Shown: in pieces, positions 8,023-21,756 of the stretch | How the letters are laid out: every line of letters starts with the position of its first letter | How positions within the stretch are numbered: position 1 is the first letter of the stretch | DNA from: Bacteroidota bacterium | GTDB taxonomy: Bacteria; Bacteroidota; Bacteroidia; AKYH767-A; 2013-40CM-41-45 | Length of the DNA: 64,000 bases | Assembly: GCA_004295015.1 (NCBI GenBank) | Contig: SHNE01000034.1 | Span: 1-64,000, forward strand | Direction: 5' to 3' | Translations under genes and position numbers: made by a program | The notes under the pieces: model-generated | Databases searched by the model: none | What the model was told of the DNA's origin: nothing | Seen by the model: the letters and a program-made list of their open reading frames with translations, nothing else

Positions 8023-9351
8023 ATGAATTATCAGGAAACACTCGACTATTTATTTTCTCAACTGCCCATGTTTCACCGCATCGGTGCAGCAGCATACAAG
8101 GCTGATTTAAAAAATACTGTCGCTTTGTGCGAGTTGCTTGATCATCCGGAAAAAAAATTTCGTTCGGTGCATGTGGCAGGTACAAATGGAAAGGGTTCCG
8201 TGTCAAGCATGCTTGCAGCAATATTGCAGGAAGCTGGTTATAAGACCGGTCTGTTTACGTCGCCACATCTAAAGGATTTCCGTGAGCGTATACGAATTAA
8301 TGGAAAAATGATTCCGGAAGAAGCAGTGATTCAGTTCGTGGAAAAGTATCAACAGCATTTTGAAGAAATACAGCCATCTTTTTTTGAATGGACCGCTGCT
8401 TTGGCATTTGATTTTTTCGCAAGAGAGAAAGTGGAAATTGCTATCATGGAAACCGGAATGGGCGGAAGGCTGGACTCTACCAATGTAATTATACCTGAGC
8501 TTTCTTTAATTACAAATATTGGTTTCGATCACATGCAGTTTTTGGGTGATACATTAGAAAAAATTGCATTGGAGAAAGCAGGTATTATTAAAGAGGGTAT
8601 TCCGCTTGTGATTGGGGAAATTCAGGAGGAGATTGCGCATGTTTTTACATCAATAGCGACAGACAGAAAAACTTCTTGTGTTTTTGCACCAGTACTCTGG
8701 AAAGTGGAAGCGAATGAACAGAAATCTTTTTTGAAGAGAGAAGATGAAGGAAGGCCAACAGTTGATTCTGATGGACTTTTGCTTGATGTTTACTATGGAG
8801 GAAACTTGCAATACAAAAACCTTGAACTTGATCTCATCGGAAATTACCAGAAAAAAAATATTCCGGCGGTTTTGCAGGCTGTGAATATATTAACCGGGAA
8901 AGGCTATATCATTACCGAAGCAAATATTCGATCTGCATTGAAAAGGGTAAAAGAGCTAACGGGCATTCGTGGCCGGTGGGAAATTCTCGGTCATAATCCA
9001 TTGATTGTGGCTGACACAGCTCACAACAAACCAGGCCTGGCAGAGGTATTAGTTCAAATTAAAAGGCAGAAGTTTGATAAACTGCATTTTGTCTTAGGAC
9101 TCGTGAATGATAAGGATATAAGTGGAATCCTGGACTTGTTGCCCACTGAGGCCACATATTATTTTTGCAAAGCAAATATACCCCGGGCCATGTCAAGCAT
9201 TGATCTGAAAGACGCAGCTGCTCAATTTAGTTTGAAAGGAGAAACGTTTACTTCTGTAAGTGAAGCATACAATGCAGCTAAGTTGAATGCCACCGAGAAT
9301 GATATGATTTATATTGGAGGCAGTACTTTTGTGGTGGCAGAAGCGCTTTGA
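8023..9351 (+). CDS. folC: Bifunctional folylpolyglutamate/dihydrofolate synthase
   Basis: FolC joins glutamate to dihydropteroate and adds further glutamates to folates in the cytoplasm. The 442-residue protein is Mur-ligase-like. It has the P-loop HVAGTNGKGSVSSML near residue 50, the folate-site motif TGLFTSPHL, METGMGGRLDSTN in the central domain, and GRWEILG...VADTAHNKPG at the start of the C-terminal domain. Length and motif order match bacterial FolC. It follows the TonB-like gene in the same direction and could be part of the same transcript. Confidence 0.95.
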   Translation: MNYQETLDYLFSQLPMFHRIGAAAYKADLKNTVALCELLDHPEKKFRSVHVAGTNGKGSVSSMLAAILQEAGYKTGLFTSPHLKDFRERIRINGKMIPEEAVIQFVEKYQQHFEEIQPSFFEWTAALAFDFFAREKVEIAIMETGMGGRLDSTNVIIPELSLITNIGFDHMQFLGDTLEKIALEKAGIIKEGIPLVIGEIQEEIAHVFTSIATDRKTSCVFAPVLWKVEANEQKSFLKREDEGRPTVDSDGLLLDVYYGGNLQYKNLELDLIGNYQKKNIPAVLQAVNILTGKGYIITEANIRSALKRVKELTGIRGRWEILGHNPLIVADTAHNKPGLAEVLVQIKRQKFDKLHFVLGLVNDKDISGILDLLPTEATYYFCKANIPRAMSSIDLKDAAAQFSLKGETFTSVSEAYNAAKLNATENDMIYIGGSTFVVAEAL

Positions 9352-9396
9352 AAAAAATATTTCCCGAGTTAGCTCGAATGGATTAATTGAACTTTC

Positions 9397-10707
9397 TCAT
9401 TGTTTGATAAACATCGTCCTTTCTTTATCTATCTGTAGGGTGTAGATTCCTGTTGTCAAATTAGAAATATCAATCGAATTACCGCATTCAATTATGTTGC
9501 CGGATCGAATGCATACTCCCAGATAATTATAAAGCTGATAATTAAACAGTGATTTTTTGGACCCTTCAATTTTCACATTCAGTTTTCCTGCAACAGGATT
9601 GGGGTGAATCATAATCTTTCTTGGTGTTGCATTGGGATTTGAAGTTTGTGTAGTTTGATTAAAGATGTTTTCAAAATTTTCAGCAAATTGATAAGAATCT
9701 TCACAGGAATTTATGGCATCCCAATTTATCGACCAGGTCATCATTCCTCTCAAATCAGCGTAAGCACCGGATTGTATAAGACTATAAGATCCGGGTTGAG
9801 GACCGTTTCCTATTAAATAGTCTATTGCTGATTTTACCATTAATGTATCAGCAAACCCTCCACCTGCAGCCAATGAACAAGCGGGTAGGCCAACAACAAT
9901 TTTTGATGCCGGGAGTCCGTTGAAAAAGCCGCCGCTTGTATTGAAGCCTTGAATGCAGGCCTCTGTCATCGCAACAATGAAATCTGCAGTACCTTGGGTG
10001 TAAATGTTTCCATCTATTCCATACATACTTCCACTATTGTATAGTTGTACATGGAGAATATCAATGGAATCACGAAGTGCGTCGATAATCGGCAAGTATG
10101 CTCCCCAAATACCTCCATAAGCAGACATCCCGCCCTGAACAAAAGCAGTTTCCGGTGCAATACTTAAAAACATTTTTCTATTATAGGTCGAGCGGTAGTC
10201 GCTCATGATTTGTTTTATTGCATCGATTAAGTTAATAATCTTCGCATCGACCGGAATCGCAATGGTGCCACCTGAAACTACAACAGAATTACCTTCAAGA
10301 TCAATATCTATACCATCAAAGCCGTAGGTGTTTAAAATCGTATTCATTGTATTGATAAAAGTATCCCGCTTACTGATTTGATCCAAGGCGATATGAGTTC
10401 CTGCTCCTCCCAGACTTATGTTTACTGTTCTTCCTTGAGACTGCAGGAACTGAATTTGGCTGATTAGTGTCGTGGAATTAACCTGGTCAGGGATAAACTC
10501 CATTTTATAATCGGTTCCCGTTTGTGGAACAGCAAATGAAATGTTCACAACCTTATAGCGTGCATCAACCTGATCGAGTGGGATATAAGGTGCATTGGAG
10601 TCGTCCCAGTTGTGCCAATAGCCAATCAGGGTTGGGCTTGTTGTTTGAGCTTCGGAGCTGATCGGGATTAAGAGTATGAATAAAATAAAAAGGCTAAGTT
10701 TTTTCAT
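9397..10707 (-). CDS. Secreted GH18 chitinase-like hydrolase with T9SS signal
   Basis: This is a 436-residue secreted glycoside hydrolase. A signal peptide ends at SSEAQ (about residue 21). The GH18 catalytic signature DGIDIDLE lies at residues 131-138, with E138 the expected acid/base, and the barrel strands VNISLGGAGTH and HVQLYNSG are also present. Some 80 C-terminal residues (from HPNPVAGKLNV to TTGIYTLQID...FIKQ) match a type IX secretion sorting domain, so the enzyme should be exported to the surface or medium. GH18 members cut chitin or related beta-1,4-GlcNAc polymers. The true substrate is not determined by sequence. Confidence 0.93.
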   Translation of the reverse strand: MKKLSLFILFILLIPISSEAQTTSPTLIGYWHNWDDSNAPYIPLDQVDARYKVVNISFAVPQTGTDYKMEFIPDQVNSTTLISQIQFLQSQGRTVNISLGGAGTHIALDQISKRDTFINTMNTILNTYGFDGIDIDLEGNSVVVSGGTIAIPVDAKIINLIDAIKQIMSDYRSTYNRKMFLSIAPETAFVQGGMSAYGGIWGAYLPIIDALRDSIDILHVQLYNSGSMYGIDGNIYTQGTADFIVAMTEACIQGFNTSGGFFNGLPASKIVVGLPACSLAAGGGFADTLMVKSAIDYLIGNGPQPGSYSLIQSGAYADLRGMMTWSINWDAINSCEDSYQFAENFENIFNQTTQTSNPNATPRKIMIHPNPVAGKLNVKIEGSKKSLFNYQLYNYLGVCIRSGNIIECGNSIDISNLTTGIYTLQIDKERTMFIKQ

Positions 10708-10796
10708 TCAGTTTAGTTTGGTGTTTCTTGCCATTTTTATATTTAAAATTTGAGGGAAGAGTACCGTTGGATTTTATTGGGCTTCCATAAAATTAA

Positions 10797-12005
10797 CTAT
10801 AGATTCTTTAATATTAGTTGTTCCAGTTCTTTCTTCAGTTCTTCAGTAAACCCCATTTTCGAGAAAATTATTTTCCCTGATTTGTCAATGAGATATACAG
10901 TTGGGTATCCGGTCACATGATATTCTTTGGCAGCTTCGAGACCTCCGAGCAGAACAGTATAGGTCACGCCTCGTTTTTCAAGAAATGCTACGATTCCTTT
11001 GTCTTTTTCATCGAAGGGATTGATGCCGACAATCTTCAAGCCCTTATCCTTGTATTGTTGATGTAATTCTTCCAGTCCCGGTAGTGCCAACATACAGTAA
11101 TAGCAGGATTTATAGAAAAAGTCTACCAAAACTAAACTACCCTTTAAATCCGTCAAATTTATTTTCTCGTCTTTCAGGGAAGTTAATTCCCAATATGGTG
11201 CTTGGCTGTCATTTGCTAAGAGTTGAGGCTCATCAATTGGGACATAATTTTTGAGCTTGGTATACTCCGGTAAAGAATGTAATTTAAATATCTTTTCATC
11301 TTTAATATTATTCAAGTCGTATTTTTTTAGCGTGATCAATTCATATTGGTACATACTGTCATTATTCATCACCATATCATAGGCTACAGAATATTGCATC
11401 GGAATTGAGTCCGCTTTGCTGATCCAATAATGTTGTTCAATTCTGAAAGTTTGAATTTCATCCAGACTGTCATTTTCAGGGGTTTTATTCAGCTGAACGT
11501 GATAACACATGGATCCATTGATACTTTCTTCATTGATAAATTTTAATTGATTTTTCGGATTAACAAGGTCAGATTCTCCGGGTAATGCAGATTTTTCAGT
11601 TTTTGTGAATGGTGTAAAAAAATGGAAGTTGTGTCGTATAGACTTTATTTCATCTGCCCATAGGGTTTTAGAGTAAAATGTTCCACTGCTATCCTTTGAG
11701 TAGGCCGTAATAAAGTCCTCACCATCATACAGTACTTCCCTCTCTTCTTTGTTCCGGTAAATTGTTTTTAAATGAAACTTAGCGGAAAAGAGGGTGTCAT
11801 CTTTTAGTTTTTTAAAATGACATCGATGTATACTTTTCGATGTATCCGGGCCGTCCATGAATTTCATGTTTCTTTCTAATTCATAATAGCCGTTGTCAAT
11901 AGAAAGGCATTTTATATAGGAGGCTTTCAGTATGGATATTGGTGATTGCGCAGCTGAATTGAAAAAGAGAGAAAGCAAGATTGCCAAAAGTTTTTCTGTT
12001 TTCAT
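10797..12005 (-). CDS. TlpA-like thioredoxin-fold protein with long N-terminal domain
   Basis: The protein has 402 residues, with a signal peptide ending near NSAAQ. About 240 residues of beta-rich sequence with no recognised function precede a C-terminal thioredoxin-fold domain of about 140 residues. The redox motif is SCYYC, within LVDFFYKSCYYCMLALPG, followed by GLKIVGINPFDE and the cis-Pro region TGYPTVYLID. This layout is common in Bacteroidota periplasmic or surface TlpA/ResA-like proteins. The expected role is thiol-disulfide exchange outside the cytoplasm, but its partner is unknown. It stands 52 bases downstream of the NTF2-like gene. Confidence 0.88.
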   Translation of the reverse strand: MKTEKLLAILLSLFFNSAAQSPISILKASYIKCLSIDNGYYELERNMKFMDGPDTSKSIHRCHFKKLKDDTLFSAKFHLKTIYRNKEEREVLYDGEDFITAYSKDSSGTFYSKTLWADEIKSIRHNFHFFTPFTKTEKSALPGESDLVNPKNQLKFINEESINGSMCYHVQLNKTPENDSLDEIQTFRIEQHYWISKADSIPMQYSVAYDMVMNNDSMYQYELITLKKYDLNNIKDEKIFKLHSLPEYTKLKNYVPIDEPQLLANDSQAPYWELTSLKDEKINLTDLKGSLVLVDFFYKSCYYCMLALPGLEELHQQYKDKGLKIVGINPFDEKDKGIVAFLEKRGVTYTVLLGGLEAAKEYHVTGYPTVYLIDKSGKIIFSKMGFTEELKKELEQLILKNL

Positions 12006-12057
12006 CAGGATAAAATTTTAATGAATAAGTTTGGTTAGAAAGAATTGCAGAGTTTAT

Positions 12058-12537
12058 TCAAATTGATGCCTTGTTATTTTGAGTGTACTTTAACAAATTT
12101 CGTCTTGCCATTTTTCTGATTCCAATTTTCATAAAAGGTGTCCATCCTAATACATACCCCTTCCATCCTAATGCCTGCCGGGACCATTTCCATAAGTCGA
12201 ATTCGTCTGTATGTCTTATGATTTTTCCGTTCTGAAATTCAAATTGAGCATGGATGTGATTAATCACTTTGCGTCCTGTTTTGCTGAAGTCATATTCAGC
12301 TACCCAATTTGCTGAGCCTGCTTTATTGTCGACAATCACATTTTCGAAATCTATTTTTAAATTTCCCTTGCTGCTTGCAATTAGCATCCGCCACATATTC
12401 TTTGCCTCGGTTCCTTTTAATTCTCCAAATACCGGGTCTGAAAAAACAATATTCGAATCATAGCAAAGAATCATTCCTTCAGCATCTCCATTTTTAAATG
12501 AAGTGTAGAAGTGTTTTATCAATTCTTCGTTAAGCAT
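12058..12537 (-). CDS. NTF2-like (SnoaL-type) cytoplasmic protein
   Basis: The 159-residue protein belongs to the cone-shaped NTF2-like/SnoaL superfamily. Typical elements are HFYTSFKNGDAEGMILCYDSNIVFSDPVFG at the start and the later strands ANWVAEYDF, VINHIHAQFEFQNGKIIRHTDEFD and LWKWSRQALGW. It carries no signal peptide. Members range from isomerases to binding proteins, so no reaction can be assigned. It is seven bases downstream of the small membrane protein and may be cotranscribed with it. Many Bacteroidota annotate this family as 'nuclear transport factor 2 family protein'. Confidence 0.85.
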   Translation of the reverse strand: MLNEELIKHFYTSFKNGDAEGMILCYDSNIVFSDPVFGELKGTEAKNMWRMLIASSKGNLKIDFENVIVDNKAGSANWVAEYDFSKTGRKVINHIHAQFEFQNGKIIRHTDEFDLWKWSRQALGWKGYVLGWTPFMKIGIRKMARRNLLKYTQNNKASI

Positions 12538-12544
12538 AATGCTT

Positions 12545-12820
12545 TTAAGGATTTACGGCATTCCGTTCTGTTCGGGTAAGCATAAAAACGGGGATGGCAA
12601 TTCCGCCCATCAAAACTAAAAAGAAAGTCCAGGGCCATTTGTTTTCAATCTTAGTGCCCCAGAGTTCCTTTAAAATGAAGACAAGTGCGACAAAAAGTAT
12701 GAACGATCCAATTCCCAGTTTTATAATCAGGAAATTCGAATTCATATACATGGCATTAATCACAATTAACAATCCTGTGATGTAGAGTGCCCAGATTAGT
12801 TTTGGGTTGAGTTTGTTCAT
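12545..12820 (-). CDS. Small three-helix membrane protein, unknown function
   Basis: The 91-residue protein has three hydrophobic helices (LIWALYITGLLIVINAM, LIIKLGIGSFILFVALVFIL and WTFFLVLMGGIAIPVFML) separated by short basic loops, so an inner-membrane protein is likely. It ends in a polar tail (TRTERNAVNP). I recognise no family motif. It sits between a TPR/metalloprotease-like gene and an NTF2-like gene on the same strand. The short spacings suggest one transcript, but nothing shows a shared function. Confidence 0.7.
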   Translation of the reverse strand: MNKLNPKLIWALYITGLLIVINAMYMNSNFLIIKLGIGSFILFVALVFILKELWGTKIENKWPWTFFLVLMGGIAIPVFMLTRTERNAVNP

Positions 12821-12863
12821 AGCAGCGAATTGGTTTTTAACCTTTGTGAAAAAATTATAAAAA

Positions 12864-13928
12864 TTATTTTTTGTTCAGCGCGTTCTCAAATTCGGATAAT
12901 AGATCGTCGAAGTCCTGGTAAATTAATTTCGCTGCCGCAGAAGTTTGTTCTGCTAATAGTTTTTTTAACTGTGCTTCTGATCCTTTTTTATTCAGATATT
13001 CAATCCAGGCAGAGCCCACCGTATAGTTTAAGTCTGATGTGTATTTATCAGGATTATCCCATAAATCTAATACTTTAATTTCGATTTCGGCAATGGCTTC
13101 TTTTGCAACTTCCATTCTGTTTCTGTCGGTCTGATCAAAAAAGGTCGCTGTTCCTTCATTGATAAATCCCGTTTTAATGATTGGATGCAGACCGTATTCA
13201 AGCAGAATGTGGGTAATTTCATGGCCCCGGGTCTGATTTTTCATGACGTTTATAATACATAAATCGGCAATCGCAAAACCTACATTTTTTCCGAGTTGTG
13301 ATTTTCCTGCATCGGCATCCGACCAGACATAGAAATCAATTTTTTTTGGTGGTGTCCCTTTAAAAAATTTGTTTATGTTTTCATATGCCTTTTCACGTAA
13401 ATCAGTAAATGAGGCCATGTCAGGAATATCCTTCTTGTTTTGAAAGTGAAAACGAAAATGAACTGTTTCTATACTATGCCAGGATTTGTAGTATTCGTCA
13501 AGTTGAAATGCTTTGAGTCTTCTTTCTGCGTGTTGTGTTGAGTTTTTTGTGGCATTTAATCTAATACAAGCATTAAAATGTTCTTGGGCTTTGAGGATTT
13601 CATCCGTGAAATAATAGCACAGGCCAAGATAAGTGTGACTCCATGCAATCACCCACTTTGGGTTGTCCTTCTCCGCTAATCCTTTTATTAAATAGGGGAT
13701 TGCTTCTTTGAATTTTTTTGAATCGGTTAAAGCGCGACCGACAACGGAATTGACCAATGCATTTTCCGGGTCCGATTCGAGTGCTTGAAGGCCCAGACTG
13801 ATTACTTTTGCAAAATCTTTCCTGACATAATGTTCTTGAATTTCTTCAATCGACTGAGAGTAGGTTTGAAGGGTTGATAGCACTAAGCAAAGAAAAAGCA
13901 GCACCAGGTTTTTAGTAGAATATCTCAT
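12864..13928 (-). CDS. Secreted TPR protein with HExxH metallopeptidase-like domain
   Basis: The product has 354 residues with a signal peptide ending at QTYSQ (about residue 25). Residues 30-130 contain tetratricopeptide-type helices (YVRKDFAKVISLGLQALE, SKKFKEAIPYLIKGLAE). The C-terminal half contains GHEITH, an HExxH zinc motif with H236, E237 and H240, and a Glu 18 residues further on in NEGTA (E258). This is the gluzincin arrangement seen in peptidase-MA-like proteins. Proteolytic activity is therefore plausible but not shown, and the target is unknown. It lies 21 bases downstream of the DUF4173-like membrane protein, suggesting an operon. Confidence 0.82.
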   Translation of the reverse strand: MRYSTKNLVLLFLCLVLSTLQTYSQSIEEIQEHYVRKDFAKVISLGLQALESDPENALVNSVVGRALTDSKKFKEAIPYLIKGLAEKDNPKWVIAWSHTYLGLCYYFTDEILKAQEHFNACIRLNATKNSTQHAERRLKAFQLDEYYKSWHSIETVHFRFHFQNKKDIPDMASFTDLREKAYENINKFFKGTPPKKIDFYVWSDADAGKSQLGKNVGFAIADLCIINVMKNQTRGHEITHILLEYGLHPIIKTGFINEGTATFFDQTDRNRMEVAKEAIAEIEIKVLDLWDNPDKYTSDLNYTVGSAWIEYLNKKGSEAQLKKLLAEQTSAAAKLIYQDFDDLLSEFENALNKK

Positions 13929-13949
13929 GGAGAATAATTGAAAATTATT

Positions 13950-15467
13950 CTAAGGAGTTGAATTTACAAATAATTTTTGATACGCTCTATACTCCGCCAA
14001 ATTCCATGATAAAATTCCCTTACGCTCCCAATGTAGTTTAAAGTTAGATTTTCTTTTTTGAATCAATTCGTGATAGCGTTCGGGTTTTAAGTAATATTCT
14101 TCGATGGGAAATATGGTTCTCTGGACAGAGTCAATGCGGATTAATTCTGGTAGTGGTTGATCAAGGATGGGAAGAGTTTTATAGGATAGATTAACCATAT
14201 AATTCAAGTGAAGAAAAGATTTGTCCGCATGAGCAAAATTGTATTTTGCTATAATGCTATCCCAGTTGAAAAGGGAGCTAAATATTAACACAACATAGAC
14301 AAATAGCGCATTTTGTCGGAATAAGTAAAATGCTGATTTGCGTTTTGAGACTTTTAGGTAAACAGTGAAAAGTCCGTATAGCGTTAAAAGAAGGAAAATG
14401 ATAACGCCAATTCTTCTGTATGCCAGGTTGAAGTGTTGTATGTAGTATAAATTCCGGATGCCGACTGAAATAGCCAGGATTGCATTCTGTGCTATCCATA
14501 TGTAGCATAAGCTTTTTAGTAATTTGTTTTCCTTGTAGAAATTAATGTTCCCTCTGAAGAAATACAAGACAATTCCAATGGATATAAGAATTGAAAGAAT
14601 CAGAAAGTGAGTGCCTTCGTGCACAAACTGCTTGAGGTACTGGCCCTCCCATTCAAAGTTGAACCAGACCCAGTAAATATCTATGCAGTTTAGAATAAAT
14701 AGAACGAAATTTAGTGTGAAGACCAGAAACAATGCTGCTTTGTACTCGCTTTTAAGAGCGCTTAAGTTAAATTGGCTTCGATGTTTCTTTTTTAAGCGAA
14801 TCAGTTCATCGCTTGAGTTTTGATCTTCGTCTATTATCCTTTTACTGGCTGTTCGAAGAAAAATGTAATTGCTCATGAGCAGGAAGAAAGTGAATGTTAT
14901 TATCAGCTGAACATTCACATGCTTAAATAGAACCAGTATATTTTCAGCAATAAAAATTTCTATGCCTTGAATCAATGAATCAAAAACCGGATTTGATACT
15001 CTGTAGAACACGATGAACAGAAATATAATTATCAATGGAAAGAATAGAATTCTGGTTTTGTGAATATACTTTCCAATATTTTTTCCAATAGTTCCGGAGT
15101 TTGATAATTCCCTTAGAAATTGGAATTGCGCGTTAAAACTATGAAGGAAGGATAGCCTTCCGCTGTTAATGAAAGATTTTGTTTGCGGATAAATAAGCAC
15201 TCCAACAAAAATTATCAAAGCAAGAAAATTGGATAGAATGGTAAACGGAGAAAAGTTGATTACAATAAAGATGCTTGTTAGTATAAGTCCGCCTGCGCTG
15301 ATAGATACAAGGCTGTTGTTGAGTTTTACTTGCTTCGTGAATAGTAGCCAAAGAAAAAATGTTGCTTCTGCAATAAGGATGTTTAAACCTAGGGACTCCT
15401 TATAAAAGAGAAAGGTGAGGATTGAGGCTGAAATGAGAACAAGGGGAAGAGGAGATTTATTCTTCAT
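13950..15467 (-). CDS. Polytopic membrane protein, DUF4173/DUF4153-like
   Basis: The 505-residue integral membrane protein has around ten or more predicted helices, starting with two near-contiguous ones (LPLVLISASILTFLFY and LNILIAEATFFLWLLF). A soluble, charged C-terminal segment of roughly 80 residues ends in ERKGILSWNLAEYRAYQKLF. The early YKESLGLN segment and the overall layout resemble DUF4173-type proteins of Bacteroidota, recalled by pattern rather than search. Function is unknown. It is the first gene of a minus-strand run that continues with the TPR/HExxH protein. Confidence 0.75.
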   Translation of the reverse strand: MKNKSPLPLVLISASILTFLFYKESLGLNILIAEATFFLWLLFTKQVKLNNSLVSISAGGLILTSIFIVINFSPFTILSNFLALIIFVGVLIYPQTKSFINSGRLSFLHSFNAQFQFLRELSNSGTIGKNIGKYIHKTRILFFPLIIIFLFIVFYRVSNPVFDSLIQGIEIFIAENILVLFKHVNVQLIITFTFFLLMSNYIFLRTASKRIIDEDQNSSDELIRLKKKHRSQFNLSALKSEYKAALFLVFTLNFVLFILNCIDIYWVWFNFEWEGQYLKQFVHEGTHFLILSILISIGIVLYFFRGNINFYKENKLLKSLCYIWIAQNAILAISVGIRNLYYIQHFNLAYRRIGVIIFLLLTLYGLFTVYLKVSKRKSAFYLFRQNALFVYVVLIFSSLFNWDSIIAKYNFAHADKSFLHLNYMVNLSYKTLPILDQPLPELIRIDSVQRTIFPIEEYYLKPERYHELIQKRKSNFKLHWERKGILSWNLAEYRAYQKLFVNSTP

Positions 15468-16039
15468 GGATATTCATTTATAATAGGGGTTAAAACGATG
15501 CAAACGGTAAAATATTTTATGCCCCTTTGAAACAATTATTTTGTTTTATTCAGTTATTGTTGCTTTTGGAACTTTGTTAATACAAACTGTAATTTACCCT
15601 AGTCAGATCTATTAGAAAAGAGAGCCGCATACCTGGATCAAGGATAGAATTCAAAACGTTTCAATTCATTTAGCTGTTTGTCTTTTCTCTGATCTTTAAG
15701 CCCTGCACTGAAATAAATAGTTGGTGTATGTAATTGTATCCTATATCACTTAATTTTCTATGGAGACAACTTATTAATAGCACATGCCTACGCTTTTTAT
15801 TGCGAAAAATGTGATTTTAGGAGGAGAGCAGGTGGTATTAAATCTCCTTATTTTTTGACCGGATACTTAGAGTCATTTTGAATTAGTAGAAATGGTCTTG
15901 AATTTTTATTCAATAGTGTAAGAGTGCGAAATACTATTGAACCTTTGTCAAGTTAGCGAACACCAGGCATATTTTATAGTGTGAAGATTGACCTTCTGCA
16001 AAGTTCGAGGCGGACTTGCATTTCAATTTTTTGCAAATC
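15468..16039. other. Non-coding or decayed stretch
   Basis: This stretch of 572 bases upstream of the DUF4173-like gene is AT-rich, with stops in all frames. I find no reading frame with protein-like composition and no strong hairpin. It presumably holds the promoter of the minus-strand run, but I see no clear TAnnTTTG element. Confidence 0.5.
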
Positions 16040-16130
16040 AAAAAAGCCTACAGAGAAAAATCCTGTAAGCCTTTGATTATTAAGTGGGAACTGCTGGGTT
16101 TGAACCAGTGACCCTCTGCCTGTAATGCAG
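16040..16130 (-). repeat. Degenerate copy of tRNA-Val 3' half plus terminator
   Basis: This 91-base segment matches 17700-17791, the terminator and the 3' half of the intact tRNA-Val(TAC), at roughly 85% by eye and in the same orientation. Shared blocks include tcctgtaagcc, gtgggaact, ctgggtt, gaaccagtgaccctctgc and tgtaa.gcag. Homology stops just past the anticodon stem. The terminator stem here carries mismatches (agcctacag against cctgtaagcc), so the copy is decayed. This is the arrangement left when an integrase uses the anticodon-to-3'-end part of a tRNA as its core site. A decayed tandem tRNA gene is the alternative. Confidence 0.75.
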
Positions 16131-16383
16131 AATTTGGCACAAAAGAGACACCTTAGCTTTATTGGAGCACATGTGCATAAGATTGGTTTAAAAGAAAAAA
16201 CTGGGACATTGTTTTTCGGCTCTTTCCATTAATTTTATTAATTATTATATGAGACGCCAGAGGAATTTGTAGCTTCAGACTTCGCCACTCCATTAACCCG
16301 GCTTGTCAGTGGAAACCAAACATCAAACAAACAATTTTCATAGCGTTTAACAACACATATTCCACCATTAACATAAAAGTGTC

Positions 16384-17589
16384 ATGAAGAAAAATCTACT
16401 TTTTTTATTTCTATTGTTCTTGGTTAAGAATGGCAATGCCCAATTAACTGATTGGCTACCTCTAGCAGACCAACATTATGGCGGTACGTCATTTGCACAA
16501 AGCAGTAATGGGTCTAAAATCTATAAAGGAACATACGGAGACGGCGTCTATATGTCATCTGATTTTGGGAATACTTGGCAAAGTATTTATCCATCTCTAA
16601 TACGTGGAGCCCATAGTATTGCAATTCGCAGGGATACTCTATTTGCTTGTATTGGTGGTTGTGGTGCCCTGGGAATACAATACACTGCAAATGATGGTCA
16701 GCTATGGACGCGAATTGATAACGGTTTTGTAGACACCTTGGATGCATATCAAATAGCCGTTAATCAAACAACATTATTTATTGCGTGTTCAAAAGGGGTT
16801 TTTAAAACAGATGATTTGGGGAAATCTTGGCAAGTATATTATACCTCCCTTAATAGTGGCGGAGGTGGATTTTCTGTATGCACAGATGGCAACAATATTT
16901 GTGTTGGTTCGCTCGGAAAAATCTTGGTGTCCAATGATAATGGTAATTCATGGCGAGAAACGATTGTGCAAGGAGTTAGTGGCTCCGTTGCTTGGGTAGT
17001 CTATATCAAAGGGAACACCTTGTTTGCGGGTTTCGGTAAAGGATTGTACCGTTCATTAAATAATGGTGAAAGTTGGACACGCGTTGGATTACCGGGGAGA
17101 AATGTTATTTCTTTTGATCTTTTTGGCAACTATGCTTTTGCAGGGACTGATTATGGGTATTCAGGAATTGCTGAAATCTTTTTTTCAACTGACAGTGGCA
17201 CAACATGGTCACAGAGCAACTTTACTCCTCCATCGGCAAGAGGCGTTTGGGGATTTGAAAAGATTGGAAATAAAATAATTTCCGGAGGCTGGAGCGACGG
17301 AATGTGGTTTGCTGACTTAGCGACTGGAAGAAATAGTGTTTCGAGCAAAGATTTACGGGTATTTCCAAATCCCGCAAGAGATTTTCTTAGAGTTGTTGGA
17401 AATGTTTCTGTACCTGCTGACTTCTCTTTATTCAACATTGTCGGCGAGAAGGTTTTGCAAATTGCGATTAAAAAGATGGATGATACAATCAATATTGAGA
17501 TTGCAAACCTTGCATCTGGGGCATATCTATGGAAGCTAGCAACCAAAGACCAGCAACTCTATACTGGCAGAGTACTTATTGACAACTGA
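16384..17589 (+). CDS. Secreted BNR/Asp-box repeat protein with T9SS signal
   Basis: This 401-residue secreted protein has a signal peptide ending at NGNAQ (residue 20). At least five Asp-box (BNR) hairpins follow: SSDFGNTWQSI, DDLGKSWQVY, SNDNGNSWRE, SLNNGESWTRV and STDSGTTWSQS. They predict a beta-propeller of the sortilin/sialidase-like class. Catalytic residues of sialidases are not evident. The last 75 or so residues (FPNPARDFLRVVG to LASGAYLWKL...VLIDN) form a type A T9SS sorting domain. It is the only gene inside the tRNA-Val-bounded segment and may be cargo of a former mobile island. A surface adhesive or binding role is inference. Confidence 0.9.
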   Translation: MKKNLLFLFLLFLVKNGNAQLTDWLPLADQHYGGTSFAQSSNGSKIYKGTYGDGVYMSSDFGNTWQSIYPSLIRGAHSIAIRRDTLFACIGGCGALGIQYTANDGQLWTRIDNGFVDTLDAYQIAVNQTTLFIACSKGVFKTDDLGKSWQVYYTSLNSGGGGFSVCTDGNNICVGSLGKILVSNDNGNSWRETIVQGVSGSVAWVVYIKGNTLFAGFGKGLYRSLNNGESWTRVGLPGRNVISFDLFGNYAFAGTDYGYSGIAEIFFSTDSGTTWSQSNFTPPSARGVWGFEKIGNKIISGGWSDGMWFADLATGRNSVSSKDLRVFPNPARDFLRVVGNVSVPADFSLFNIVGEKVLQIAIKKMDDTINIEIANLASGAYLWKLATKDQQLYTGRVLIDN

Positions 17590-17701
17590 AACTGTAATCC
17601 ACAATTGCGTTCCCAGCGATTCTAAATGACCCATGGCAAGGACAAATTCCTTAAAAGAGGCCATGATTATTAGGATTTTATGCAAATTTTATGCAAATGA
17701 A

Positions 17702-17736
17702 AAAAGGCTTACAGAAATAAATCCTGTAAGCCTTTT
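17702..17736 (-). terminator. Rho-independent terminator of tRNA-Val(TAC)
   Basis: The perfect 13-base-pair stem (aaaaggcttacag, with ctgtaagcctttt) encloses a nine-base loop and runs into T residues on the minus strand, directly after the 3' end of the tRNA. Confidence 0.85.
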
Positions 17737-17745
17737 GAAATCTAG

Positions 17746-17820
17746 TGGGAACTACTGGGTTCGAACCAGTGACCCTCTGCTTGTAAGGCAGATGCTCTGA
17801 ACCAGCTGAGCTAAGCTCCC
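17746..17820 (-). tRNA. tRNA-Val (anticodon TAC)
   Basis: On the minus strand the gene folds into a standard 75-base cloverleaf. Acceptor strands GGGAGCT and AGTTCCC pair with one G-T wobble. The D arm has TTAGCTCAGCTGG, the anticodon loop is CTTACAA (anticodon TAC, reading GTA and related Val codons), and the T arm has GGTTCGAACCC. The discriminator is A and CCA is not encoded. A perfect terminator follows. A decayed copy of its 3' half lies 1.66 kb further on (16040-16130). Confidence 0.96.
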
Positions 17821-18183: not shown

Positions 18184-21100
18184 ATGAAGAAATTATTTAC
18201 GTTCATTCTCTTTGTCTGCATTGTTCATTTCTCCAAGGCTCAAACTTTTTACTGGAATGGAAGCGAGCCAATCATGGATTTACAAACAGATACTATCCCG
18301 ATAGTTGTTTCGGGATTGCCAACAGCCATTGATACAACTTTTGGAATTGGTCATGCTTGTATCACCCTGACTCATTCTTATTTGTCGGATCTCATTATTA
18401 AATTAATGTCACCTGACGGATCAATTGTAGTATTAATTCAGAACCAAGGCGGATCAGAAAATAATTTTTACGGTACTTGCCTCGCTATGGATGGCACGGA
18501 ATTCAGCAACCTTGTACCTCCTTATTCTGGTCTGATGGTGCCGGTGGGTAATCTCGCGTCAATGAATAATGGACAGAATCCGAATGGTATCTGGAAATTT
18601 ATTATTTCAGATGTAGCAAATTCTGATACGGGTACCGTGCAGGAGTTAAATATTGAATTCACTAACAATCCTCCAAGACAAACTCCTGGGCCGAACGGTG
18701 GTGGTCCGACCGGCGTTGCCATATGTGCTACCTGCGTTTGTCCGGGTGGAGCGGCAAATTGTGATCTCTTGCCGGACATGACAGCTTCTTACAAAGAGAT
18801 AAATCTTAATCATAATGAAACTCCGGGCTTTCTTGATATTTCCAATGCTACACCTAATATCGGTTATGGTCCCTTAGAGATATATGGTATGGATTCTTGT
18901 TTCTGTGGAACCGTCAATGTGCCATGCGGGACTGTATGTCCCGGAGGTGAAGATATTGAGCACGTTGTACGACAAAGAATTTATCAGAAAGTGGCCGGCA
19001 CGGATACTCTGAGTTTTTATGACCGGCTTGCAGGCAGGATGACATACCATGCTGCACATGGACATATTCACGTTGACCATTGGTCTAATTATACATTGCG
19101 TTCTGCAACTTCTGATCCTGATCCTAAAAACTGGCCGATCATTGGAACCGGCACCAAGCAAAGTTTTTTTTTTATAAATTTAGACTCCTGCAACAGTAAT
19201 CCGGGTGAATGTACCGACAACAATGGAAATACCATTCTGACTGTTCCGAATAATGGTGTAGGTTTTCACACCGGCTGTGGACTCAATCAAGGAATTTATC
19301 CGGGGCAATATGACGTTTACAGCATGGGATTGAATGATCCGATAATTTTGGATAATGTTTGTAATGGAACCTATTATATTGTTTCTATCACCGATCCCAA
19401 CAACAATTTTCTTGAAAGCGATGAGACAAATAATACCATAGCCGTCCCTATCACACTTACGCAGCAAAATGCAACTCCTGCAATCACTGCAAGTGGCCCA
19501 ACCACAATTTGTCCCGGTGATAGTGTGACTTTGACATCGAATACTGCCTCAAATTATTTATGGAGCACCGGAGCAACAACCCAATCGATTGTGGTGTATA
19601 CTGCAGGAAGCTACACAGTGTCTAGCACATGCGGAGCATCTACAGCCTCGTCAGCCCCTGTCGTAGTTAGTGTTCTTTCCGGAACCGTGACCCCAAGTGT
19701 ATCAATTGCTATCACCTCAGGTAGTAATCCAATGTGTTTAGCCGGTACGGTTACAGTAACTGCTACTCCGACATATGGTGGCTCTGCTCCTGTGTACCAA
19801 TGGAAAGTTGATGGAACAAATGTTGGCACAAACAGCCCAACATATACCGCCTCAAATTATTCAAATGGCCAGGTAGTAACTTGCGTATTGACTTCAAGTC
19901 TTTCATGTGCAACAACAAGTACCGCCACCTCCAATGGCATTACAATGATAGTCAGCTCTACAGTTTGTTATTGTATTCCGGTTTATGGAACAACAGGTAA
20001 CTCAGGCTGTCTGGATGGTGATGTAATTGCCCGTGTAATTTTAAATACCCTTGATAATAATTCCGGCGCAGGTTGCCCCTCGGGTGTTGCCGGTTATTCA
20101 GATTATTCTGCGAGTTCAAATCCGCTCCATACGACAACATTACAAGCCGGGAACACTTACAATTGTACGGTTTATGCCGGTCAATATGGTGAGGGCTATG
20201 CAATCTGGATTGATTTTAATGATGACGGAGTTTTTTCTTCCACTGAAAAAGTTGGAAATACTACAACCGTAGTACCGGGAAGTGGAAGTGTAGGAGTCAT
20301 AGGTTCATCGCGCGCCATTCCAATCGTTATTTCTTGTAATGCTCCGGCCGGTCCTCACAGAATGAGGGTTCGTGGAGTTTATAATCTTGCCGGCCCAACT
20401 ATTGATCCTTGTATTTACCATTCCAATTATGGCGAAGCCGAAGACTATACAATAACAATTGCGGGATCTGTTGCGTGCCCAAAACCTTCGGCACAAACGG
20501 CAACGGCGATTACCTCAACTACGGCCACTTTGAACTGGACACCGGGATGTTCAGAAACATTATGGAATCTGCATATAACAAATTCAGGCGGCGGAGCTCC
20601 AACAGGTTCTCCGTCTAATCCTTCTGTGTCAAGACCATTTAATGCAAGTGGACTGACGGCCGGTACTCCTTATGAATTTTGGGTTGCAGCAGATTGTATA
20701 GCCGGCGGGAATGGTACAAGTTTATGGACAGGACCATTTCCTTTCACTACAGCAGCCAATTGCACAAGTATTCCCGGAACCTCATTTGCAAATCCTATTG
20801 TGATTGGGCAAGCTCCTTGCTCTACAAATGCCTACGTGAATACGCAGACCAATTCAACCGCAAATTGTTTTTCAAATAATTATAGCGGGGCTAATAACCA
20901 GGCTTCACCTGACATATGGTATAAGTTTACATTGGCTTCAACCCAAACCGTACAAATCGGACATTGTGCGACGAGTGGTTTGGCGGATAGCTATCTCCAT
21001 TTATTGAATAGCAGTGGAACTCAATTATTATTTAACGATGACAACGGACCTTTATGTACCGGTAATCGCTCATCAATTTCGACGAGTCTGGCTGCAGGAA

Positions 21101-21756
21101 CCTATTACATTGTTTCAGAAGGATACAGTTCAGGTGTTGGAGTTATTACCACTACTGTCAGAACAACTACAGCATGCCCAAGCTCTACAACCTTAAACCT
21201 TTCAGCTCTCATAGAAGGACTCTATGTTGGGGGAGGCATGATGAGACCCGTATTGTATCAGCAAGGCTTAAGCGGTGACGTTGCTGCCTGTGATTCTATC
21301 ACTGTAGAACTTCGTAATTCTACCAGTCCATTCGCTGTTTTTTCTTCTGTAAAAGCCTTGCTACGGGAAAATGGTCTAGCTGTTGCAACATTCCCTTTGT
21401 ACATTTCAGGTCAATCGTATTATATTTCAGTAAAGCATCGAAACTCACTTGAAACATGGAGCATGCTTCCTGTTTTCTTTGATGGAAATCCTGTTAGCTA
21501 TGATTTCACAAGTGCCGTGAGTCAGGCTTTTTCCAAGAACATGAAAATCTTAAATGACGGTAAAACTTCCCTGTACAGCGGCGACGTTAATCAGGATGGA
21601 ATGATCAGTCAGCTTGATTTTACCGCACTGGAAATTAGTAAGCAGGTGTTTTTGTATGGATATTTTACAGATGATTTAAATGGCGATGGTGTTATTGAAT
21701 CCAGTGATTATAGTTTGCTTGAAAATAATATTTCGCGAATGAGTATGAGGCCATAA
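18184..21756 (+). CDS. Giant secreted mosaic protein with lysyl-oxidase-like domain
   Basis: The 1190-residue protein has a signal peptide ending at FSKAQ (residue 20). In order I read: a proprotein-convertase P-like domain (about 25-165, NGIWKFIISDVANSDTG); a lysyl-oxidase-like domain (about 195-430) with the copper-type motif HAAHGHIHVDHW and the family-like end FLESDETNNTIAVPI; two Ig-like repeats (about 435-590); a GEVED domain (about 595-755, ending NYGEAEDYTI); a fibronectin-III-like domain; a pre-peptidase C-terminal-like domain (about 865-1000); and a C-terminal dockerin-like pair of calcium loops (GDVNQDGMISQLDFTA and DDLNGDGVIESSDYS). The last element replaces the usual T9SS signal. 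Enzyme activity is not shown. Confidence 0.88.
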   Translation: MKKLFTFILFVCIVHFSKAQTFYWNGSEPIMDLQTDTIPIVVSGLPTAIDTTFGIGHACITLTHSYLSDLIIKLMSPDGSIVVLIQNQGGSENNFYGTCLAMDGTEFSNLVPPYSGLMVPVGNLASMNNGQNPNGIWKFIISDVANSDTGTVQELNIEFTNNPPRQTPGPNGGGPTGVAICATCVCPGGAANCDLLPDMTASYKEINLNHNETPGFLDISNATPNIGYGPLEIYGMDSCFCGTVNVPCGTVCPGGEDIEHVVRQRIYQKVAGTDTLSFYDRLAGRMTYHAAHGHIHVDHWSNYTLRSATSDPDPKNWPIIGTGTKQSFFFINLDSCNSNPGECTDNNGNTILTVPNNGVGFHTGCGLNQGIYPGQYDVYSMGLNDPIILDNVCNGTYYIVSITDPNNNFLESDETNNTIAVPITLTQQNATPAITASGPTTICPGDSVTLTSNTASNYLWSTGATTQSIVVYTAGSYTVSSTCGASTASSAPVVVSVLSGTVTPSVSIAITSGSNPMCLAGTVTVTATPTYGGSAPVYQWKVDGTNVGTNSPTYTASNYSNGQVVTCVLTSSLSCATTSTATSNGITMIVSSTVCYCIPVYGTTGNSGCLDGDVIARVILNTLDNNSGAGCPSGVAGYSDYSASSNPLHTTTLQAGNTYNCTVYAGQYGEGYAIWIDFNDDGVFSSTEKVGNTTTVVPGSGSVGVIGSSRAIPIVISCNAPAGPHRMRVRGVYNLAGPTIDPCIYHSNYGEAEDYTITIAGSVACPKPSAQTATAITSTTATLNWTPGCSETLWNLHITNSGGGAPTGSPSNPSVSRPFNASGLTAGTPYEFWVAADCIAGGNGTSLWTGPFPFTTAANCTSIPGTSFANPIVIGQAPCSTNAYVNTQTNSTANCFSNNYSGANNQASPDIWYKFTLASTQTVQIGHCATSGLADSYLHLLNSSGTQLLFNDDNGPLCTGNRSSISTSLAAGTYYIVSEGYSSGVGVITTTVRTTTACPSSTTLNLSALIEGLYVGGGMMRPVLYQQGLSGDVAACDSITVELRNSTSPFAVFSSVKALLRENGLAVATFPLYISGQSYYISVKHRNSLETWSMLPVFFDGNPVSYDFTSAVSQAFSKNMKILNDGKTSLYSGDVNQDGMISQLDFTALEISKQVFLYGYFTDDLNGDGVIESSDYSLLENNISRMSMRP

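Follow-up and report, generated by a model that had tools for sequence, protein, structure and literature searches.

What process left a second, partial copy of tRNA-Val(TAC) 1.66 kb from the intact gene in the 64,000-nucleotide stretch of a Bacteroidota genome analysed here (the window), and what is the DNA enclosed between the two? With a probability of roughly 0.8, we consider the region to be the decayed footprint of site-specific integration at the segment of tRNA-Val(TAC) from the anticodon to the 3′ end, by tyrosine integrases of a Bacteroidota clan. The features under discussion, in window coordinates, are as follows.

8023..9351, plus strand: folC, a conserved chromosomal neighbour and the left edge of the insertion hotspot (synteny).
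9352..16014, no strand assigned: segment from folC to the displaced copy, with GH18, TlpA-like, SnoaL-like, TPR and DUF4153 genes (synteny).
16015..16039, minus strand: decayed paired TTTGCA motif GATTTGCAAAAAATTGAAATGCAAG behind the displaced copy (alignment; the same tandem arrangement is intact in relative G044).
16041..16076, minus strand: hairpin of the displaced copy (repeat and alignment).
16084..16131, minus strand: displaced tRNA-Val 3′ half, anticodon stem to 3′ end, a slightly decayed attR-type junction (repeat and alignment).
16176..16309, plus strand: degenerate attC of the genome's integron-like cassette family (covariance model, identity to array attC).
16384..17589, plus strand: 401-aa Asp-box protein, predicted to be T9SS-exported (ORF, domain search).
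17679..17697, minus strand: putative paired arm-type motif TTTGCATAAAATTTGCATA (P′ arm; pattern match, motif class 34–74 nt behind tRNAs).
17702..17736, minus strand: hairpin/terminator GGCTTACAG...CTGTAAGCC, directly 3′ of the intact tRNA (inverted repeat; related hairpin modules behind other tRNAs).
17745..17820, minus strand: intact tRNA-Val(TAC), the target gene (ARAGORN).

A repeat search aligned positions 16040–16131 with 17701–17792 as a direct repeat of 92 nt, 85% identical and with a spacing of 1661, comprising the tRNA-Val(TAC) 3′ half from the anticodon stem on and the hairpin. Within the window's genome (G000), a 171-nt query matched the displaced copy at E=1.3e-25, far above chance. 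The degenerate 3′-half copy and terminator described in an earlier note on this DNA are thus real, although the homology reaches slightly further than that note had placed it, beyond the hairpin and into a paired TTTGCAnA motif in the alignment. The two 3′ halves are identical at 41/45 positions in an ungapped stretch from the anticodon stem onward, and the anticodon loop reads ATTACAG in the displaced copy versus CTTACAA. The tRNA-Val 5′ half was undetectable in the 49 nt beyond the copy's anticodon stem (score 12 versus a shuffle mean of 11, p=0.40). Together, the identity of the 3′ halves and the missing trace of a 5′ half indicate that the copy consists of a 3′ half which ends sharply at the anticodon stem, rather than of a whole gene that has decayed evenly. 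An intact tRNA gene with a displaced 3′ fragment downstream, in the same orientation, is the arrangement of a tRNA-integrated island. On the 5′ side of the tRNA (18184–21756) lies the gene for a 1190-aa P-domain/GEVED/fn3/dockerin protein, which is unmatched at the locus in the relatives compared.

Among 61 genomes the motif TTTGCANANNATTTGCANA has 13 matches, 12 of them at tRNA 3′ ends, tRNA 3′ halves or integrase genes and one elsewhere. What stands downstream of tRNA-Val in relatives is either a hairpin with ATTTGCAnAnnATTTGCAnA after it or an ordinary terminator. GTDB genomes, scanned with a longer pattern (the motif with its T-run), returned at least 81 motifs in at least 80 loci; among the matches listed, 56 of 81 motifs lie 34–74 nt (nearly all 39–46 nt) behind an intact same-strand tRNA, and these 56 listed cases involve 15 kinds of tRNA. 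About eight more of the listed motifs, from rows read by eye, stand behind tRNA 3′ halves, and in five of these cases an integrase lies on the anticodon side; nearly all motif-bearing loci among the matches listed are from Bacteroidota. From their position, and from the matching between junctions described below, the TTTGCA pairs are putative integrase arm sites, and the TTTGCAnA motif would mark the arm sites of a Bacteroidota clan of tRNA-targeting tyrosine integrases.

In two relatives, G044 and G054, the tRNA-Val 3′-half module adjoins integrase genes. G044 has two tRNA-Val 3′ halves in tandem, each beside an integrase of 425–427 aa, and a third site that is the intact tRNA. Its arm pairs match from one junction to the next. 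The intact tRNA is followed by TTTCGACAC, which also stands beside one of the integrases; the 3′ half at that integrase is followed by TTTGCAnA, which also stands beside the second integrase; and the remaining 3′ half is followed by an ordinary terminator. These three pieces come from different contigs, and their order is the one we infer. A third such integrase is present at the tRNA-Val core in G054, and all four integrases tested, including the window genome's own, contain Phage_int_SAM_5 and Phage_integrase domains. The element of the same clan in G000 occupies tRNA-Arg(ACG), with one part on contig C2 and the other on C11; over 50 nt its hairpin module shares 81% identity with that following the displaced copy in the window. 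From this similarity across tRNA-Arg(ACG) and tRNA-Val sites, the hairpin/arm module seems to move as part of the elements and not to belong to the tRNA. The resident integrase differs in its target tRNA and in its arm subtype (TTTGCACA). An integrase with a matching attachment sequence, which the earlier note had thought might be encoded elsewhere, is found at the tRNA-Val core in relatives, whereas the genome's own enzyme of this clan is the one at tRNA-Arg(ACG).

The enclosed DNA itself contains no integrase, as had been noted from its sequence: there is no Phage_integrase (PF00589) match on the window's 88.7-kb contig, so the locus differs from a tRNA-integrated island with an integrase gene inside and is a relic rather than an active island. 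No relaxase, excisionase or integrase is left in or near the insert, and the identity of the responsible enzyme is accordingly deduced from relatives. Both attachment sites are kept (the one at 16040 decayed) and the integration and transfer genes are lost, as in a CIME. Base composition was discarded as an insertion marker, the G+C of the insert (0.392) being the chromosome average.

The integrase-footprint geometry proposed earlier is supported not only by these tRNA-Val-core integrases but also by islandless sites and other inserts in relatives. folC adjoins tRNA-Val in several relatives; the two genes are 135 bp apart in G003 and 450 bp apart in G009, both from other genera of the family, compared with 8.4 kb in the window. 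G003 and G009 are the sites without the island that such a history predicts; in G009, a degenerate tRNA-like copy and a small ORF region occupy the gap. Other inserts at the same tRNA are present in G007, where a Rep_1 protein, a HicA-like toxin gene and a truncated P-type-ATPase-like ORF lie between folC and an arm-module tRNA, in G044, and probably in G006, which has the arm module, has contig breaks at the junctions and probably carries another element between folC and tRNA-Val. G001, the only relative from the same genus, is without the arm module, and there a contig break and tandem GIY-YIG and tRNA-like repeats disrupt the locus. tRNA-Val and folC are codirectional in G005 (L039 6701–6776), G044 and G054 and convergent in the window, G003, G007 and G009, a difference that is a local inversion.

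In the mechanism that we propose, the attachment region of this clan (Phage_int_SAM_5 plus Phage_integrase) would consist of the tRNA 3′ half, a terminator-like hairpin and a TTTGCAnA arm-type pair. At each insertion the element would supply a 3′ half that makes the tRNA whole again, and the old 3′ half, together with whatever follows it, would be moved away. The tRNA gene at 17745..17820 would have been reconstituted by element DNA and form an attL-type junction, and the hairpin at 17702..17736 would be part of the module travelling with the elements. Since a decayed TTTGCA pair also follows the displaced copy at 16040, a succession of at least two insertions is probable. These arm sites had been missed when the 3′-half copy was first recognised; they suggest an older insertion to the left, of which the pair at 16015..16039 is probably the P′ arm. 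The older element would extend towards folC (9.35–16.0 kb), with the younger at 16.13–17.70 kb. The segment 9352..16014, which is absent in relatives without the island, is probably cargo of the older insertion; its DUF4153 gene, left of the displaced copy, is missing from same-genus G001 and most of the family. A search near folC and inside 9.34–16.04 kb gave no third attachment remnant above shuffles (best local score 27 versus a shuffle maximum of 29), so the older insertion shows no recognisable left edge. Both elements would have lost the integrase and the integrase-side arm sites, giving a CIME-like relic; the insertions would have occurred in this order, the integrases would have gone by deletion, and the region would now be immobile.

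The cargo of the younger segment would be cassette-derived, a degenerate attC with the T9SS-secreted Asp-box gene behind it. Domain searches of the 401-aa ORF matched a T9SS sorting tail (Por_Secre_tail, 5e-9) and a Sortilin/BNR (Asp-box) repeat, in agreement with the exported Asp-box repeat protein of the earlier note, which had listed the gene and the tRNA copy but missed the attC-like site at 16176–16309. Sequences matching the non-coding DNA that separates the displaced copy from the gene recur at multiple places in the genome, and a covariance model of 16 sites, with the window's own site left out, detects the site at 16176–16309 with 59 bits (E=6e-12). The site is 80% identical to the array attC. 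Its outer boxes are mutated (CATAAG, GTCAG), it shows no excess folding (−25.9 versus −25.3), and the matching partner cassette ends expected for it were not found. Given the mutated boxes and the missing excess folding, its sequence identifies it as a degenerate member of the family by descent, rather than as a functional site. The 401-aa gene is placed after the attC-like site, as cassette genes are, with no attC of its own detected downstream. The 1.57-kb segment has no close copies in relatives and no second copy in the 61 genomes.

The attC-like family occurs at 21 places in G000 including the site in the window (about 20 others), in cassette arrays on C46, C49, C50 and C16 and as solo sites on C5, C6 and C36; none was detected in 60 relatives, and none in PLSDB plasmids. 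In the array cassettes the start is the reverse complement of the end in 11/11 (a 10-nt run in 10, 8 nt in one) and position 11 never matches, whereas mismatched pairs of cassette ends match over only 4–8 nt. Two array sites fold 5–6 standard deviations better than mononucleotide shuffles (−47/−51 versus −26/−30 kcal/mol), and the family has the R and L boxes, unpaired spacers and bottom-strand fold of attC-like sites. No canonical IntI scores over the TIGR02249 cut-off in G000 or 20 relatives. The best candidate, an integrase at C30, was rejected: it reaches 110 bits versus the cut-off of 265, and its score comes from two separate blocks of the model only. By this measure no complete integron was recognised. 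Many genes in the arrays (L221 on C46, L222 on C49, L226 on C50, L254 on C16) have T9SS-type C-terminal tails. The solo sites outside the arrays (L255 5136–5267, L256 6698–6835, L257 6078–6202) each lie behind one gene, the three genes being RelE-like toxin, unknown and DUF5615-like; for L255 the cassette boundaries can be recognised (1 mismatch, 0.58 kb), as they probably can for L256.

The attC and gene might instead have entered the leftover spacer of an older island at a later time, through cassette integration at a secondary site and independently of the tRNA integrase. We hold this to be possible rather than probable; it concerns only the order of events inside the integration history set out above, with which its likelihood overlaps. 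Solo cassettes with recognisable ends elsewhere in the genome, on C36 (0.58 kb) and probably C5 (0.63 kb), are consistent with such an event, but they have the gene before the attC and matching ends, whereas the gene in the window has neither the expected cassette start upstream of it nor an attC downstream. A broader scenario for this lineage, in which single-gene units are inserted into the chromosome by an integron-like cassette system without a canonical IntI and then spread by tRNA-targeting integrases as tiny integrase-less islands, would make the locus a fossil of this coupling and T9SS-secreted proteins its recurrent cargo; we regard it as improbable.

The copy at 16040 might also be a decayed tandem tRNA-Val gene, with the 1.6 kb between acquired independently, which the earlier note had offered as the simpler alternative. 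Degenerate tandem tRNA-Val-like copies do occur beside this tRNA in relatives G006, G009, G001 and G049, but in most of these D-arm sequence is preserved, the anticodon arm is rich in G+C and the terminators are ordinary, whereas the window copy has a native anticodon arm, a TTTGCA module and a sharp edge at the anticodon stem. The missing 5′ half and the arm module make a tandem gene very unlikely, and we reject it. tRNA-like copies with the anticodon arm replaced by a G+C-rich palindrome (CCCGG..CCGGG or TCCCGATGCGTATCGGGA) were also seen at L031 9553–9780, L093 9524–9640, L016, L026, L132, L137 and L155, sometimes as tandem arrays beside a real tRNA. GIY-YIG nuclease-like ORFs lie directly behind tRNA-Val at L259 4438–4974, L041 1–214, L023 and L029; those of G001 form tandem units with a terminator and a tRNA-like copy.

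An intact, small non-autonomous element (CIME/satellite), moved in trans by an integrase encoded elsewhere, is also a very unlikely account of the 1.57-kb segment. In favour of this reading, the genome does encode a same-clan integrase, and [Flexibacter] sp. ATCC 35208 has a 0.7-kb integrase-less interval of the same design (L171 2991–3900; YefM/YoeB-like pair, bounded by an intact tRNA(CAT) and a tRNA(CAT) 3′ half with arm module). Against it, the window's two attachment copies have diverged at either end of the anticodon loop, the older arm pair has decayed and the attC has degenerated, the resident integrase is directed at a different tRNA, and the segment is single-copy among the 61 genomes searched. 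Of the two options first put forward, a relic or a mobilised mini-element, the relic is thus favoured.

On the integrase-footprint reading, a decayed island that is too small and integrase-poor for standard island finders is still recognisable and explainable. A DNA signature as simple as a tRNA 3′ end, about 42 nt of hairpin and a paired TTTGCAnA would mark the insertions of one integrase clan, spanning many tRNAs across Bacteroidota, and may be useful for mapping hidden islands. The attC-like sites point to an integron-like cassette family in a phylum with few integrons reported: the IntegronFinder 2.0 survey lists only In0 and a Salinibacter integron in Bacteroidetes (PMC9024848). Like CALIN or single attC (PMC9024848), the sites are attC-like and folded, with one gene per unit and no integrase gene nearby; the family in the window's genome differs in its 10-nt matching cassette ends and in having no canonical IntI in the assembly.

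tRNA fragments are an established mark of islands, and tRNA islands, their displaced fragments and filters for them have been described (PMC4383910). The locus resembles such Islander-type islands in its tRNA gene, same-orientation displaced 3′ fragment and anticodon-loop subsite, but fails the Islander filters (integrase needed, at least 2 kb), as a relic would. The Riemerella anatipestifer 10K island at tRNA-Arg, with an IntN1-like integrase and a printed 53-bp direct repeat that contains a hairpin-like sequence (PMC6764341), and NBU1 at tRNA-Leu (PMC5704250) are likewise Bacteroidota tyrosine-integrase elements at tRNA 3′ ends. Both are complete and active, whereas the locus described here has lost its integrase and has tRNA-Val(TAC) as its target. 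CIME decay and accretion at tRNA 3′ ends are also known (PMC5704250). As in CIMEs and accretion islands (PMC5704250), attL/attR-type repeats are kept, integration and transfer genes are lost, and the element stands in tandem with another at the same tRNA; the locus differs in its very short remnant, its Bacteroidota clan, its hairpin and TTTGCA module and its cassette-derived cargo. tRNA islands and their decay to CIMEs are thus known, and the locus described here is a degenerate member with unusual cargo.
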